Source: a virus. Taken from it: a stretch of 64,000 nucleotides of DNA. Both the position numbers and the translations under genes were made by a program. Below are positions 25,672-64,000 of the stretch, piece by piece; positions within the stretch are counted from its first letter, which is position 1, and every line of letters starts with the position of its first letter. The stretch lies in IMG/VR virus record IMGVR_UViG_3300031834_000002, positions 25,805 to 89,804 of that record, one strand, 5' to 3'. The notes under the pieces are model-generated. The model was not told where the DNA came from and ran no database searches. It saw nothing but the letters and a program-made list of their open reading frames with translations.

Positions 25672-27258
25672 TTAATCATTTGTAAAATTGACTATAACTG
25701 ATTCTAAATCGCTCTCCATATACGAAAAAATATGTTCGAATACTGTTAGCGAACAATAAGAACGTAAATTTATACCAGACAAAACAAATCCTTTAGAACC
25801 AAGTTCTCCATTATAATATTTAATTGCATCTGGAAATGCTATCATTAAATCATCGTAACAATTTCTTAATAAATTAATTTTTGACATTGAGTTATAATCG
25901 AAAGGTTGTGACCAAGCGCTAATAACTGAAAATCTTATAAAACCTCCTCCATCAATATAACCTAATGGGGTATCATATCTAATTCTTACTTCTATAGAAG
26001 GGTCGTCAAGAGAACTATAAATAGTATCTATACAATGAAAAGTATCGCCAAGAAAAAGATTACTATCTACATGAAAAGCATTTTCAGAAGTTACTGCAAA
26101 TAAACGGAGTTGCGATTTGGTATTAATTTTCAATAAAGGGGTAATTAATGTTGTCGGATACCCTTTTGTATATATTTGCATTTCTTCATAATAAGTTCCT
26201 ATATCATCAGTTTCTATATGAGTAGTTCCTAATAAAATTCCATGTAAACGTTTTACATTACTATAAGAAGTCCATTTAGAAGGAATTATTGACCCTATTA
26301 TGCTGGTTATCCAAAAATGTTCTGTTGATTGTCCAATTTGACCTTGAATAATTGGAGTATTAAAATCAATAATACCTTGTTTATCAATCAAAATATCTTT
26401 TTGTGATTGGTCTATCCAAAATATAGATTGACACCATGAAGTTATCATCATTAAAAATTTTCTTAAATCTTCTATATGCATATCTTTAATTTGATATTTT
26501 CCATTTTCAGCAGTTAAACCTAAATCTATCCAATCCATTTGATGTAGAATTTTTCTTTCTATGCCTTCTTCGTCATAATTAAAATAATCTTCTTTTGTTT
26601 GTCCTGTGATTTCTAATATTTTTTCTGTAGATTCTCGTAATTCTGCTATATGTTTTTTATTTATAATCCAATAACCATATTCGTCAGATTGCACTTTTGA
26701 AAATTCTGTTCTATCGACTTCTATAATACCGCTATCTATTTCTTGTTGTATGCGAATATCCTGTAATTCTTTTATATGAATAGCTTTAATCCTTAAAAAT
26801 CCTTTATAATAAGTTTGTAAAGTATTCTCAAATTGATTAGTATATATATTCAATTTTTTATTTATACCACTTTTTGTTAAAATAGAATCATCTTGCCATG
26901 TTCCTAATTTACTGAAGCATTTAGGGCAACGGTCGATATAAAGAATTTCTTCTTGTGGCGGAGGATTAGCTACCACAGGTATCAGAGTTTGAGTTTCTTC
27001 TGCAATCATACTGATAATTTCCTCGTTGACTCCTACATAAGTTCTATCGATATATCGAATACAACTTTTTATTTTTTCTTCAGTTTGGGTAATATTAACC
27101 GCAATAGTGGTTATTATGGGTTCTTCTTCTTCTTTAGTATATATTATCTTCTCAGTTGAAATATTTATTGCAGTAGTAGATATTGCTTTAGTTAAATCTA
27201 CAATTGGTAAAGGAATAGGGACAGGCATTGGAAAATTAGGGAGAGGTATTAAAGGCAT
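25672..27258 (-). CDS. distal tail or fibre-associated protein
   Basis: 528 aa when started at ATG 27258, which has AGAAGGAGG just upstream; the in-frame ATG at 27285 is less likely. A proline-rich N-terminus precedes a CPKC half-site and three spaced HI.xLR modules (KAIHIKELQDIR, NKKHIAELRES, KDMHIEDLRKF) that resemble repeats in phage tail appendages. The C-terminal half is beta-rich. Last gene of the late operon, so likely at the tail tip. Confidence 0.65.
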   Translation of the reverse strand: MPLIPLPNFPMPVPIPLPIVDLTKAISTTAINISTEKIIYTKEEEEPIITTIAVNITQTEEKIKSCIRYIDRTYVGVNEEIISMIAEETQTLIPVVANPPPQEEILYIDRCPKCFSKLGTWQDDSILTKSGINKKLNIYTNQFENTLQTYYKGFLRIKAIHIKELQDIRIQQEIDSGIIEVDRTEFSKVQSDEYGYWIINKKHIAELRESTEKILEITGQTKEDYFNYDEEGIERKILHQMDWIDLGLTAENGKYQIKDMHIEDLRKFLMMITSWCQSIFWIDQSQKDILIDKQGIIDFNTPIIQGQIGQSTEHFWITSIIGSIIPSKWTSYSNVKRLHGILLGTTHIETDDIGTYYEEMQIYTKGYPTTLITPLLKINTKSQLRLFAVTSENAFHVDSNLFLGDTFHCIDTIYSSLDDPSIEVRIRYDTPLGYIDGGGFIRFSVISAWSQPFDYNSMSKINLLRNCYDDLMIAFPDAIKYYNGELGSKGFVLSGINLRSYCSLTVFEHIFSYMESDLESVIVNFTND

Positions 27259-59020: not shown

Positions 59021-60838
59021 TTATTCTCCAGTTTTAAATAAATTATTAAGTCTTTTGATTTCTTCTTCTAAATATTTTAATAGGTCTAATTTATTTTCTA
59101 AACTAAATTTTACTAATTCAGTCTGAAAAAAATATTTTAAACCATCTTGATATTCTTGTTTAGTTAAAATTAATTCTTCTTTTTTTTCAATCTTTTGTCG
59201 CCATTCTATTTTATTTATATTTATTCGTTGTGGTCTCGTCCAACTATTAGCACCTAACCCAGCTTCGGTTATAATTTTGGGAGTAGAATTAAAATCTTTC
59301 TTTAACCAAACTGCTATTGCAAAAACTTTAAAAGCATCGAATACATGGTCTCCTGTTTCAGAAATACATGCATATACTGTTCGAGTTCCAATTGTTCGAG
59401 AAATTACTGAGTTTATTTGATTTAAAAATTTAAAATCTCTTGGCATTAATATTCTGCCTTCGTATAATAAAGTCTTCAAAAATTTATTACTCCATTCAGA
59501 TTGAAATTCTTCTAATAATACTGGTTTGCCATCTTCTACCATTATTTCATTTTTATCATTTTTCTTAAAATCTACACCTATTTTATCTCCACCAGCATAA
59601 CGAACTAAATTATTTAATGGATATTTTTTTTCTGCTCTTCTATACAGACTACGACCTGTTCCATCTCCACAATCAAATCCTATAACATTTGCTTGCAATT
59701 TTTGAATTAACCAATCTATAATTTCCCATTGTTCGTCATCTTTTAAAGAATAAAGAGCAATTCTATAAAGATATTGATATTTATTATCTATTTCTCCAAG
59801 AATAATAATTTCACTTCCGCCAGCACCATCTCCAATATCACCTGCTATAAAAATTCTTTGTATATTTTTAGGTCTTTCTACAACAATTAAATTTTTAAAA
59901 TAATGAAAAGATTCTTTTTTAATTTCAAATATTTTAACTTCTGATTTTTCGTCTATATAAGGTTCTATCCGAGAAATGTCGAATTCGCTGATTCCGTCTT
60001 CTATAACTTCCGCTTTTACAAATATGCGATAAGTAGACGAGTCGATTCCGCCATATTCTTCTCGGCGTGATTCTTCTTCTTTTTTATCAAATGTAGGATT
60101 AACATACTGAGGAAGATTACATATTTTGTTTTTATTTTTTGGGTCGTAAAATGCTCTTCCAGCAGGTGTGAATTTTGTAAAGTTTGTCATTCCAGAACTT
60201 CTTATTACTGCCCCATTTTCAGAAAGAGCGTCTTTTCTTTTATCATAAGATGCAGAATTTTCAAGTGAGGCTTCTTCTATATATATCTTCTTAAAATGTT
60301 TTCCGAACCATTGTCGTCCTGCGTCCTTAGATGCAATATTCATATTCACGCCTTGTAACGTCCAACCATTACGAGCAAATATTTCATATTTTGGTGCACC
60401 ACGAACTCTTTGTTTCCACATTTTTAAAATTGGGTGAAAACAAATTGCACGAACACAAACATCTAATACATCTTGAAGATGTATAGAATCAGCACTTGAA
60501 AAACCTTCTATATCATTTTCATCATGAAGCATAGAAATTGGAATATCTATTTTTTCTGTAACTAAGGATTTTCCATATTTTCTTGCTCCAAAATTATAAA
60601 TATCTCCTGCACCTTTACGAAGTTCGAACTGTTCCTTTGGAGAAAGTTCTGGCATATTTGTATCTATAAATGGTTCTGAAGAAAGAAAAGGATATTGATA
60701 TAATCTCAAAGAACCAAATGTTTCTTTAAATTCGCTAAGGTTATCGAAATTAGAAAACAAACTCTCAGCTAAAGCAACAGGTGTATGAAATAGTTGTATA
60801 AATTCTAATTCTTCTTCTGTTATTCTTTCGGCTATCAT
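59021..60838 (-). CDS. terL: terminase large subunit
   Basis: 605 aa packaging motor. A Walker A-like loop GARKYGKS (residues 84-91), Walker B with catalytic Glu in KKIYIEEAS (183-191), and an RNase H-type nuclease with Asp334 (AGDIGDG), Asp389 (GFDCGDG) and Asp497/Asp501 (GDHVFDAFKVF). Walker A lacks the usual GxxxxGK(S/T) glycine spacing partner, as in many TerL proteins. TerS lies 50 bases upstream. The start has no clear ribosome site. Confidence 0.9.
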   Translation of the reverse strand: MIAERITEEELEFIQLFHTPVALAESLFSNFDNLSEFKETFGSLRLYQYPFLSSEPFIDTNMPELSPKEQFELRKGAGDIYNFGARKYGKSLVTEKIDIPISMLHDENDIEGFSSADSIHLQDVLDVCVRAICFHPILKMWKQRVRGAPKYEIFARNGWTLQGVNMNIASKDAGRQWFGKHFKKIYIEEASLENSASYDKRKDALSENGAVIRSSGMTNFTKFTPAGRAFYDPKNKNKICNLPQYVNPTFDKKEEESRREEYGGIDSSTYRIFVKAEVIEDGISEFDISRIEPYIDEKSEVKIFEIKKESFHYFKNLIVVERPKNIQRIFIAGDIGDGAGGSEIIILGEIDNKYQYLYRIALYSLKDDEQWEIIDWLIQKLQANVIGFDCGDGTGRSLYRRAEKKYPLNNLVRYAGGDKIGVDFKKNDKNEIMVEDGKPVLLEEFQSEWSNKFLKTLLYEGRILMPRDFKFLNQINSVISRTIGTRTVYACISETGDHVFDAFKVFAIAVWLKKDFNSTPKIITEAGLGANSWTRPQRININKIEWRQKIEKKEELILTKQEYQDGLKYFFQTELVKFSLENKLDLLKYLEEEIKRLNNLFKTGE

Positions 60839-60888: not shown

Positions 60889-61563
60889 TTAAACAGTAGG
60901 ATTAGCCTTATTATCAGTTGGTTCTTTTTTTAAATAAATTTTTTCTTCTAACCAATCAATATACATGTCAGAACAACCTAAGATGTCTGCTACTTGTTTT
61001 TTTGTAATAATATTTTGTTTATATAAATCCCACAATATTTTATTACCTAATACTTTTGATTCAAAGAAAGGATGTTTCATTGTATCCCAAACATCTGATT
61101 TAATATAAAGAAGAATCATCTTCGAGCAATGTGGGCATGTAAATGTTCTATCCTGATTTTCTTTACACCAAACTTTAAATTTATTTTTTAATTGTTCAAT
61201 ATATTTATAACCATCATTACTATCGTTATTATCGAACAATCCTAATTTTGTTTTTAAATTAAAAATTTGTTCGAGATTTTCATTCATTGCATCTACAATA
61301 TATTTTGGAACAGTAAAATCTTTTTGGTCATTTTCTGATTTTGTTTTATTGTCTTTTTTTATCTTTGTTTCTTTATCGGCAATATTATTCTTCATTTTAT
61401 CTTGAAGTAATTCTTTATAAACTAATTCTTCAAGTAATTCCATATCGGAATAATTAGAAATCGAATAAACTTGACAATATTCGTCGAATTTTTCTTGACC
61501 ACGTTTTTTTTCATAGCGGTCTAAACCAATTCCACGATACTCATACTTTTTATTTTCTTCCAT
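60889..61563 (-). CDS. terminase small subunit-like protein
   Basis: 224 aa directly before TerL. It has FTCPHCSKM (Cys143, Cys146) half-ribbon, a WDTMKHPFFESKVLGNKILW segment, and a C-terminal helix-turn-helix like TKKQVADILGCSDMYIDWLE. This combination recurs in phage small terminases that bind the packaging site. First gene of the late operon, behind the terminator-like hairpin at 61590-61616. Confidence 0.65.
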   Translation of the reverse strand: MEENKKYEYRGIGLDRYEKKRGQEKFDEYCQVYSISNYSDMELLEELVYKELLQDKMKNNIADKETKIKKDNKTKSENDQKDFTVPKYIVDAMNENLEQIFNLKTKLGLFDNNDSNDGYKYIEQLKNKFKVWCKENQDRTFTCPHCSKMILLYIKSDVWDTMKHPFFESKVLGNKILWDLYKQNIITKKQVADILGCSDMYIDWLEEKIYLKKEPTDNKANPTV

Positions 61564-61578
61564 ACATTTTCTTTTCTT

Positions 61579-61616
61579 ATAAAAAAATTCAGAGGGTAGA
61601 ACTTAGCTACCCTCTG
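61579..61616 (-). terminator. intrinsic terminator in the late-operon leader
   Basis: CTACCCTCTG/CAGAGGGTAG, a perfect 10-bp stem (61590-61599 with 61607-61616, 7-base loop), followed leftward by a run of seven Ts (AATTTTTTTATAAG). It lies about 60 bases after the start of transcription from the promoter at 61684 and 16 bases before terS, so it would block late transcription unless antiterminated. Confidence 0.8.
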
Positions 61617-61683
61617 GCGGTTATATTTATATATTAAGCCATAAGATTTTTATACAAATAGACATATTCCCTCTTCTACTATA

Positions 61684-61712
61684 AGTATACCATACTAACC
61701 TCTTAAATACAA
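61684..61712 (-). promoter_or_regulatory. leftward late promoter (P2)
   Basis: Reading leftward: TTGTAT (61712-61707), 17-base spacer, TATACT (61689-61684), then TATAGTAG. Transcription starts near 61677 and runs to the terminator and terS. Matches the other promoters in the window in -10 and initial region. Confidence 0.8.
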
Positions 61713-61751
61713 GGATTTCTCTAAATTAATTTATATCTGAATTATATCTAA

Positions 61752-61821
61752 TAAAAAGCAAGGGGGATTAGATTCTTTTATATACTTGCCCTGTAAAGTG
61801 GGCTTCTTTAATCTATCCCCC
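61752..61821 (-). terminator. branched terminator after the 53-aa gene
   Basis: GGGGGATTAGAT (61762-61773) pairs with ATCTATCCCCC (61811-61821); inside, GCCC/GGGC forms a second hairpin, giving a branched structure. TTGCTTTTTATT follows leftward as U-tract. It ends the short transcript from the promoter at 62035. Confidence 0.75.
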
Positions 61822-61827
61822 AGCGAA

Positions 61828-61989
61828 TTAATCTTCTTTTTTATTATCTGTATATACCTGACCATTTGCATAATCATCTTTACCTCTAAGCATCTTGGTT
61901 TTTAATTCTTTAAAAAAGTATAATAATTTCATCGTATTTTTATCTATATCAAGATAACTATAAAATTTATTCCTTCCGTCTCTCTCCAT
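61828..61989 (-). CDS. small protein between promoter and terminator, 53 aa
   Basis: Starts at ATG 61989 (GGAGTATGT just upstream); an upstream ATG at 62046 would lie within the promoter. MERDGRNKFYSYLDIDK..., helical and charged. It forms a monocistronic unit between P1 and the branched terminator, a position often held by a regulator or an early inhibitor. Function unknown; an antitermination or host-takeover role is only a guess. Confidence 0.6.
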   Translation of the reverse strand: MERDGRNKFYSYLDIDKNTMKLLYFFKELKTKMLRGKDDYANGQVYTDNKKED

Positions 61990-62034
61990 ACATACTCCAT
62001 TTCTATTAAAAGTTAGTTCTATTTTCCTAATACA

Positions 62035-62063
62035 AGTATAACACAACTATTTACAAAAGTCAA
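62035..62063 (-). promoter_or_regulatory. leftward promoter P1
   Basis: Reading leftward: TTGACT (62063-62058), 17-base spacer, TATACT (62040-62035). The sequence GAAATCATTGACTTT around the -35 also occurs at the rightward promoter at 9412. Drives the 53-aa gene. Confidence 0.85.
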
Positions 62064-62202
62064 TGATTTCTCTTTCCCACCGACGACAAAAATTAAATAA
62101 ATCCCAAAAATCTATACTTTTTTTGTTACCAAACCGCTACAAACCGACGAATTCCTAACCCAAATCTTCTATTATATATATCTATATAATATTTATATAT
62201 CA

Positions 62203-62232
62203 TTGACATATATAGTAATCATATAATATAGA
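62203..62232 (+). promoter_or_regulatory. possible rightward promoter before hairpin cluster
   Basis: TTGACA (62203-62208), 18-base spacer, TATAGA (62227-62232). The -35 is a consensus match but the surrounding DNA is extremely AT-rich, so chance is possible. Transcription would enter the hairpins at 62244 and 62290-62388. Confidence 0.4.
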
Positions 62233-62243
62233 TATATAAATAT

Positions 62244-62278
62244 TATAGTAGTAGTTTATTACATAAACTACTACTATA
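62244..62278. repeat. 16-bp perfect inverted repeat
   Basis: TATAGTAGTAGTTTAT (62244-62259) and its exact reverse complement (62263-62278) around a 3-base loop. The strongest palindrome of the region; possible cruciform, origin element or RNA hairpin. Confidence 0.8.
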
Positions 62279-62289
62279 GAATAATGTTT

Positions 62290-62388
62290 TATACTCGCTA
62301 ACGCTCGTATAAAGGGTCGGGATAAACTATCCCTCCCCTTAGAAAGTTCGTTCCTCACTTTCTTAACAGGATTTCTTTACAAAATCCT
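62290..62388. repeat. cluster of four short inverted repeats
   Basis: In order: TATAC/GTATA (62290-62311), GGGATA/TATCCC (62319-62333), GAAAGT/ACTTTC (62342-62362) and AGGATTT/AAATCCT (62368-62388). Each is a compact stem-loop; spacing is close. A structured RNA or protein-binding array is possible. Confidence 0.6.
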
Positions 62389-62525
62389 AATAACAATCTT
62401 GCTAAAGAATTCGTAAGTAAAATGCGATTAACCGAGCTAACTTTTTATATTCTTAATTATTATTAAATTACTAATTAATACGAAATCAGTAACAAACTTA
62501 ATAAAAAGGATAAATAAACAATCCT

Positions 62526-62542
62526 GTTAGGTATTTCCTAAC
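62526..62542. repeat. short inverted repeat
   Basis: GTTAGG (62526-62531) and CCTAAC (62537-62542) around a 5-base loop, in the non-coding region. Weak alone. Confidence 0.4.
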
Positions 62543-62592
62543 TATAATACCCGATAGGGAGGAATTGATTCAAATAATCAATCATATTGCTA

Positions 62593-62795
62593 AAAACCCC
62601 ATACAATCTGCTAAATTACACCCTATCGGATTAAGTTTAAATCTATTCTCGAATGTCAACTCTGACTTGTCATAAAAAGATACTATTATTTGTTACAAAG
62701 AAAACAATATAAATCAATCTTGCCTATTTTTAATAAAAACCTACACACCCCCTGCTAAACTACACCCATAGGGTCAAGGTTAAATGTTATTCGCC
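62593..62795. repeat. pair of diverged direct repeats of about 60 bp
   Basis: Copy 1 at 62593-62651 and copy 2 at 62736-62795 share the order AAAACC...CTGCTAAAyTACACCC...GG.T.AAG.TTAAAT..TATTC. Roughly two thirds of positions agree. Possible remnants of a mobile or regulatory element. Confidence 0.5.
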
Positions 62796-63461
62796 CCCAA
62801 GTAGGTTATCATTAAAAAGCTAAATAAGACCCCTCTAATAGATAATTTGAGCATATTTATATAACAACCTAAAATAACACAATTTAGCATATATATTGAA
62901 TTGGAGCACAACAGGATTTAACAAGAATTCACAGAATTTAACATGGGAAGATTTTTGGGGAGTTTTTATAATTATTTTATTATATAAGTCCTTACTATAT
63001 AAAGCGTTAGAAAAATACGGTGGGTATCTAAAACGTTAAGAATTAACTTTTTGCTAAAAAAGACCCTCCGCCTTGATTATTATTGTAACTCATTACATTG
63101 TAATAGGTTATGATTATTATTATAATCTTTATCTGTCATTATACTTTATAGGTATAAATACAAATAGCCTTCTTTTTAGCCGTCTTAAAAAAAAGCCGTT
63201 TTTATTTGTCTTTATACTCTATTTTAGCTCAATCTTGCTTTGTTTATCCTGTTATCTTGTCTTTGTTGCATAATGTTAGGAAGTAACTATTTTATTGTAT
63301 TTGTTATTCAATTAGTTTTTTAACTCTTTTATTCTTAACTAATTTATTGTATTATTATACCATTAGATTGATTGTATTTTTTATAGTAAGGGATTATCTT
63401 GTCTTTATACTTTGGTATAGTTATCTTTGTTTATAGGTGATTATTACATTGTAGTTAAGAA

Positions 63462-63767: not shown

Positions 63768-63881
63768 ATGAAAATACAAAAAATTGACTGTTTAATAAAA
63801 GCAAGAAAAATTGCAAAACGTTGTGGCGGTTTTACCATAGATTATTATTATAAATTATTGACAAAGTATAAACTATGGTAA
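63768..63881 (+). CDS. small basic protein, 37 aa
   Basis: ATG 63768 follows GGAAAGGGGAT, 28 bases after the -10; the longer frame to 63681 would overlap the promoter. Basic helical sequence (CLIKARKIAKRCGG, YYYKLLTKYKLW). First gene of a new rightward unit. Function unknown. Confidence 0.5.
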   Translation: MKIQKIDCLIKARKIAKRCGGFTIDYYYKLLTKYKLW

Positions 63882-63897
63882 AAATTTTTTTCATACC

Positions 63898-64000
63898 TTC
63901 GGCAAGGGCGAAGCCAAAGCCGAAGGCAAGGGCGAAGCCAAAGCCGAAGGCAAGGGCGAAGCCAAAGCCGAAGGCAAGGGCGAAGCCAAAGCCGAAGGCA
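63898..64000. repeat. GC-rich 24-bp tandem repeat reaching the right edge
   Basis: Unit GAAGGCAAGGGCGAAGCC plus AAAGCC. Three full copies (63922-63945, 63946-63969, 63970-63993) flanked by a nearly complete copy on the left and a partial one at the edge. Each unit contains GCGAAGC, known as an unusually stable DNA mini-hairpin. The array is far richer in GC than the rest of the window and lies in no started ORF. Confidence 0.9.

Follow-up and report, generated by a model that had tools for sequence, protein, structure and literature searches.

Organization of the late-operon head

The window analyzed here, a stretch of 64 kb, is the right-hand part of an 89.8-kb virus record, and coordinates refer to this window unless stated otherwise. 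Its minus strand carries, from right to left, a gene for a 53-aa protein, a promoter, a short leader open reading frame (ORF), an intrinsic terminator, terS, terL and a probable portal gene, and the run of minus-strand genes extends to position 25672. An initial annotation had given the coordinates and the order of promoter, terminator and terS correctly; the main feature that it missed is the short leader ORF, whose stop codon abuts the terminator. The large terminase gene terL (59021–60838, minus strand; 605 aa) is assigned from its predicted fold and from the PHROG matches of its relatives. The gene that we call terS (60889–61563, minus strand; 224 aa) is the first past the terminator and is named only by its position before terL; homologues with 36–63% identity to its product precede terL in related genomes.

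The late promoter (61684–61712, minus strand) comprises a −35 hexamer TTGTAT (61712–61707), a 17-nt spacer and a −10 hexamer TATACT (61689–61684). It had been described as a consensus promoter, which overstates the weak −35 element (three of six consensus positions), but the extended −10 is strong, with TATG at 61694–61691 and the complete TATGG-TATACT element spanning 61694–61684. The site itself is real and is the best in the record: with a matrix built from the promoters of 14 relatives, the window left out, it ranks first in the whole record with 16.9 bits, against 14.7 for the next site. A simple promoter scan reports an overlapping site in its place. TATAGT-like bases follow the −10 hexamer, where a Q-type late promoter would have a −10-like pause element in its first transcribed bases, but the early promoters of this phage have such bases as well. 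Judged from the −10 element, the predicted leader RNA begins at about 61677 and carries a Shine–Dalgarno sequence, AGAGGG, at 61674–61669, the two together occupying 61669–61677 (minus strand).

The terminator (61581–61616, minus strand) consists of a stem-loop (61616–61590) with a perfect 10-bp stem and a 7-nt loop, two A residues and a run of seven T (61587–61581). Its hairpin begins about 61 nt past the predicted transcript start and has a folding energy well below that of shuffled sequences (z = −4.3; 0 of 200 shuffles as low), in agreement with the earlier description of a perfect intrinsic terminator some 60 bases downstream of the promoter. Under a stricter scan, it is the sole strong intrinsic terminator of the 89.8-kb record (−15.4 kcal/mol; the next ones reach −7.6). 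Between the T-run and the terS ATG (61563) lie 17 nt without a −10-like site, and the earlier remark that no other promoter is to be seen there thus stands. Because this gap leaves too little room for a promoter, polymerase can reach terS only by passing the terminator.

Upstream of the late promoter lies the 53-aa gene (61828–61989, minus strand), itself preceded by a promoter-like site (62035–62063, minus strand; TTGACT, 17 nt, TATACT) that matches 10 of 12 consensus positions and has a TG before the second hexamer. Between this gene and the late promoter, at 61821–61762 (minus strand), lies an inverted repeat, GGGGGAT...ATCCCCC, that encloses a GCCC/GGGC hairpin and has no Rfam match. A similar-looking inverted-repeat element is found in the equivalent place in the related contig L039, directly after a tRNA-Met gene. 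Further repeats lie upstream of the 53-aa gene, in a non-coding region of roughly 2 kb: a 9-bp inverted repeat, CCGATAGGG...CCCTATCGG, at 62629–62551 (minus strand) brackets some 60 nt, and a motif, GGGTGTARTTTAGCAG, is present there and again near 62760 (about 62767–62752, minus strand).

Several features lie elsewhere in the record. Its first 65 bases (L007 1–65) recur exactly at window positions 63867–63931, near the right end, where a 24-bp tandem repeat comes next after this copy (63867–64000). These two repeats make it probable that the record represents a complete circle or else a genome that is circularly permuted. The early region (L007 and L008; record positions 1–25804) encodes a tyrosine integrase, a RuvB-like ATPase, an M16 peptidase, a trypsin-like peptidase, a BT1/MFS transporter and a Prim-Pol protein, a set that is unusual for a phage. 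In the late region, again on the minus strand, a second extended −10 promoter stands directly 5′ of a 229-aa gene (window 50012–49294).

The module heads the terS operon in 16 related genomes

TerL and TerS of this phage have no match in PHROGs, Pfam or the phage collection, and single-protein searches with TerL, TerS and the DNA polymerase returned no usable relatives. A Walker-A DNA pattern for FGARKYGK recovered eight related contigs, and alignment-based scans raised their number to more than 20; the genome contigs that we scanned with the TerL alignment gave no match. The best PDB matches to the predicted TerL fold are the large terminases of D6E, T4 (gp17), Sf6 and HK97. Whole-chain TM-scores are low (0.2–0.3), presumably because the two TerL domains are placed differently, and the match improves when the nuclease domain is taken by itself (target TM-score up to 0.70). 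TerL proteins of 4 of the 15 relatives match phrog_5909. Taken from the predicted fold and these PHROG hits, TerL is assigned as a true large terminase.

The promoter–leader–terminator module heads the terS operon in 16 genomes, including the window, and the TerL proteins of the relatives are 42–66% identical to that of this phage. A terminator is found in the corresponding place in all 16 modules. A near-identical sigma-70-type promoter is present in all 15 for which promoter sequence is available (L016, whose promoter falls beyond the contig end, is counted among the 16 carriers). These promoters share CTTG, a TATAMT hexamer 23–24 nt downstream and a TG before that hexamer; the spacer between −35 and −10 is little conserved, the extended −10 excepted. 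A supported branch (95/89) of a TerL tree sets the carriers apart as one clade, and the module occurs in 0 of 7 outgroup members, some of whose contigs are short of upstream sequence (122 nt in L031). One counterexample, L036, which was left out of the TerL tree, has the promoter without the terminator, and its TerS is close to that of the carrier L029.

The module also stays intact where other genes have come to lie between terminator and terS, namely an HNH-like gene in L021 and L035 and another ORF in L040. L018 likewise has an HNH-endonuclease-like gene near terS; in these three HNH-bearing contigs, the gene lies between the module and terS or just before terS. Two further observations concern single carriers. 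A tRNA gene cluster (eight genes by ARAGORN, more by Rfam) lies upstream of the late promoter in L029 (1582–2336), and the TerL frame of L016 (1075–3876) has an insertion of about 400 residues past the Walker-A region, free of stops and intein-like in appearance.

Promoter, ORF and terminator, with their spacing and their conservation, can be read directly from these genomes. A terminator that heads a late operon and is kept in 16 related genomes together with a near-identical promoter points to a conditional element, and we consider it likely that the late genes are under read-through control at this site.

Leader ORFs end at the terminator

The leader ORF of the window (61627–61665, minus strand) has 12 codons and a stop and encodes MSICIKILWLNI; the terminator starts 10 nt after its stop codon. 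In 13 of the 16 modules, a Shine–Dalgarno sequence and a short AUG-initiated ORF (MSI... or MSM...) lie between promoter and terminator, and 13 of the 16 leaders have a G-rich purine tract at the 5′ end of the transcript, shortly before the leader ATG. When the first ATG is used throughout, without selection, every one of the 13 ORFs reaches the terminator: 11 stop 3–18 nt before the hairpin and two, in L020 and L021, stop inside its loop. Dinucleotide shuffles yield a mean of 3.8 ORFs that reach the terminator and a maximum of 10 in 4000, and the remaining two reading frames do so in only 4 of 13 and 3 of 13 cases. As the 16 genomes are related and are not independent trials, we repeated the test with one representative per close group, which answers this concern in part: all nine representatives reach the terminator, compared with a mean of 3.0 in mononucleotide shuffles (0 of 5000 equal the observed value).

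The length of the ORF varies from 10 to 30 codons across carriers, even between sisters (12 in the window and 27 in L039), the distance from ATG to hairpin ranges from 43 to 93 nt, and the peptides have little in common past M-S. Given that sister leaders are unlike in length and share little sequence, the spacing between stop codon and hairpin appears to be kept while the sequence drifts. Codon 2 encodes Ser in 11 of 13 leader ORFs, as TCT in ten and as AGT in L024; in ordinary ORFs, TCT is the second codon in 2 of 88 and 1 of 101. Three module carriers, L019, L027 and L029, retain the terminator without an AUG-initiated leader ORF, which favours a translation-independent role of the terminator in these genomes. 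A scan of viral contigs for the promoter, the Shine–Dalgarno sequence and ATGTCTA gave at least 121 matches in the loci examined; among the matches listed, a terminator comes right after the ORF in two, both prior members (L039 and L037), and in one more that lies inside a long gene.

Searches for antitermination signals

The initial annotation had likened this arrangement to the late switch of lambda and had pointed to a Q-like protein or a put-like leader RNA as its agent. A conditional terminator, the first part of that proposal, is likely in view of its retention in 16 genomes; an agent of the lambda Q or put type found no support. The Q family PF06530 is absent from 13 related records, and no known antiterminator is among the families listed for the plus-strand proteins of the record, including the lists of the best 25 families. 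Rfam returned nothing in the window at the gathering score and nothing in 61500–63200 at E ≤ 1, and we therefore set aside a riboswitch or another known RNA family. For RNA antitermination of the put/nut type, which likewise found no support, the terminator proved the sole structure common to the leaders, again with no Rfam match (boxA was judged by eye).

Other leader-based mechanisms fared no better. Across leaders, there is no conserved alternative antiterminator helix (Stouffer z of 0.2 and −0.9), and competing antiterminator pairing is accordingly rejected for the clade; in the window only, the Shine–Dalgarno AGAGGG could pair with the 3′ arm of the terminator (z = −2.4). The leader peptides are not more hydrophobic than shuffles, which speaks against a selected hydrophobic peptide. 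T-runs in the leaders are not clearly above chance, and pausing at such runs was dropped as an explanation. No conserved stalling motif or codon run was found in the leaders. An amino-acid attenuator of the trp type is disfavoured by the lack of a conserved competing helix and of a codon run, as well as by stop-to-hairpin gaps of 3–18 nt where more than 20 nt would be expected (PMC4824070).

A model of translation-coupled attenuation

We propose that this region is a translation-coupled transcription attenuator that heads the late operon and resembles pyrBI in its logic, a reading to which we assign a probability of about 0.5. A promoter of the host sigma-70 type would produce a short mRNA that bears the 12-codon leader ORF, and terS and terL, with probably the remainder of the leftward late operon, would be transcribed only by polymerases that pass the terminator. 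The stop codon of the leader abuts the terminator, which makes leader translation the likely input. If a ribosome stood at this stop codon or close to it while polymerase was at the T-run, it would occupy or crowd the 5′ arm of the hairpin and allow read-through. With less than 100 nt of leader ORF (43–93 nt from ATG to hairpin), the ribosome would normally arrive too late, making termination the default and coupling the switch. A slower polymerase in the leader or faster ribosome loading would then open the late genes, and nucleotide levels or a phage-encoded factor, for example the 53-aa protein, could act as the trigger. We infer from sequence that terminator and leader are active and that read-through is set by ribosome position, and the trigger and the timing are inferred in the same way.

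Work in E. coli bears on this model. The terminator tR2 is nearly fully repressed by translation that ends a few nucleotides upstream and regains full efficiency once translation ends more than about 30 nt upstream; terminators that lie less than 100 bp into a coding region escape this effect unless a pause gives the ribosome time to catch up, as happens in pyrBI (PMC4824070). In the phage leaders, the lack of a conserved alternative helix and the ordinary hydrophobicity of the peptides favour direct blocking by the ribosome over a trp-type switch or a selected peptide. Ribosome blocking is further favoured by the fixed closeness of stop codon and hairpin, which neither a competing helix nor a Q-type protein explains. 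Against the attenuator, some leaders, including that of the window (gaps of 10–18 nt), place a ribosome at the stop codon at the hairpin edge only, and a mini-gene with a terminator directly after it would look alike.

Processive antitermination of the Q kind, in which a phage protein would join polymerase at the late promoter or shortly past it and carry it through the terminator, with the leader ORF as a secondary element, is the best of the alternatives and in our judgment unlikely. It would account for an order of late promoter, short leader, terminator and late genes that matches lambda and phage 21 (PMC6606751), and for the persistence of promoter and terminator in the three genomes that lack the leader ORF. 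The first candidate for such a protein would be the 53-aa product, whose gene lies just upstream as Q precedes the lambda late promoter. Members of its family occur in 12 of 14 module-bearing records and in 0 of 6 others, and in six records within 0.6 kb upstream of the module, making the protein a possible cofactor of the late switch under either reading; yet no member was found in the carriers L024 and L029, and the distribution may merely mark one clade. The absence of PF06530 from all 13 related records, and of known antiterminators from the families listed for this phage, weighs against a Q-like agent, as does the little-conserved promoter spacer, where Q binds, although Q sites do differ between phages. 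Such a protein also leaves the constant placement of the leader ORF end at the hairpin unexplained.

That same placement would be trivial if the promoter served a micropeptide mRNA with its own terminator, a stop codon closely before a terminator being an ordinary gene end. The late operon would then be fed by constant partial read-through, in a fixed ratio and with no switch. With two nucleotides separating its stem from its T-run, the terminator may be leaky, and the AGT codon of L024 indicates that what is kept at codon 2 is the Ser residue of the peptide. Still, the peptides, at 10–30 residues, share little past M-S and have shuffle-level hydrophobicity, and the ORF ends inside the terminator loop in L020 and L021, a strange position for a simple gene end. 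In these phages, moreover, the ordinary genes that have terminators stop 27–57 nt upstream of them (three clear cases only). We regard this reading as quite improbable. It is highly improbable that the terminator is only an insulator, stopping transcripts that the promoter-like site at 62063–62035 would send towards it from before the 53-aa gene, with the late genes started by another type of promoter close to terS, as the 17-nt gap has no −10-like site and the strongest promoter of the record precedes the terminator, as in 15 of 15 modules with promoter sequence available.

Translation-coupled attenuation, with its conserved leader ORF, is therefore our better guess from the sequence than a Q or put mechanism. 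Extended to the clade as a whole, it would mean that these uncultivated phages run their late operon by transcription–translation coupling, the leader ORF sensing ribosome position or supply in place of an antiterminator protein or late sigma factor, and that the virion genes open only if host translation keeps pace. We offer this broader claim tentatively, at somewhat less than even odds.

Comparison with known systems

The well-known late switches of phages use a protein, whether an antiterminator, an activator, a new sigma factor or a new polymerase. If our reading is true, the conserved pair of ORF and terminator that leads into terS makes ribosome movement the signal for late genes. Promoter, ORF and terminator together also provide a handle for locating the start of the late operon in a divergent clade with terminase genes that have almost no match in current libraries. 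The literature that we searched, which covers few subscription papers, held no leader-ORF attenuator of a phage late operon; as far as searched, attenuation, a known kind of control, thus appears here at a site with no prior description.

IsrK of the prophage Gifsy-1 is likewise a short RNA made from a phage promoter and ending at an intrinsic terminator, with partial read-through into downstream genes and a short ORF, but its ORF lies past the terminator and acts on anti-repressor translation, whereas ours precedes the terminator and the late operon that it heads (PMC4825925). In the AlpA system of Pseudomonas (PMC7969949) and the GafYZ system of the Caulobacter gene transfer agent (PMC11150451), a large gene cluster is controlled by antitermination at a terminator close to the promoter; each depends on a dedicated protein, and none was identified here. 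The switch of lambda and phage 21 (PR′, tR′ and Q) shares a strong sigma-70 late promoter, a short leader and a terminator that blocks the late operon (PMC6606751), but in our phages no Q homologue or common Q-binding element was found, and a leader ORF stands between promoter and terminator.

The closest likeness is to the pyrBI attenuator of E. coli, which also has a short leader ORF at the 5′ end and a terminator inside or near the end of that ORF (PMC4824070). In both systems, no competing antiterminator helix is found, and read-through is expected when a ribosome follows close behind polymerase. The pyrBI leader has about 44 codons and spans the hairpin, whereas the phage leaders have 10–30 codons and usually end just before it. 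The pyrBI system is a UTP-sensitive control of E. coli; the predicted attenuator described here heads the late genes of a phage.
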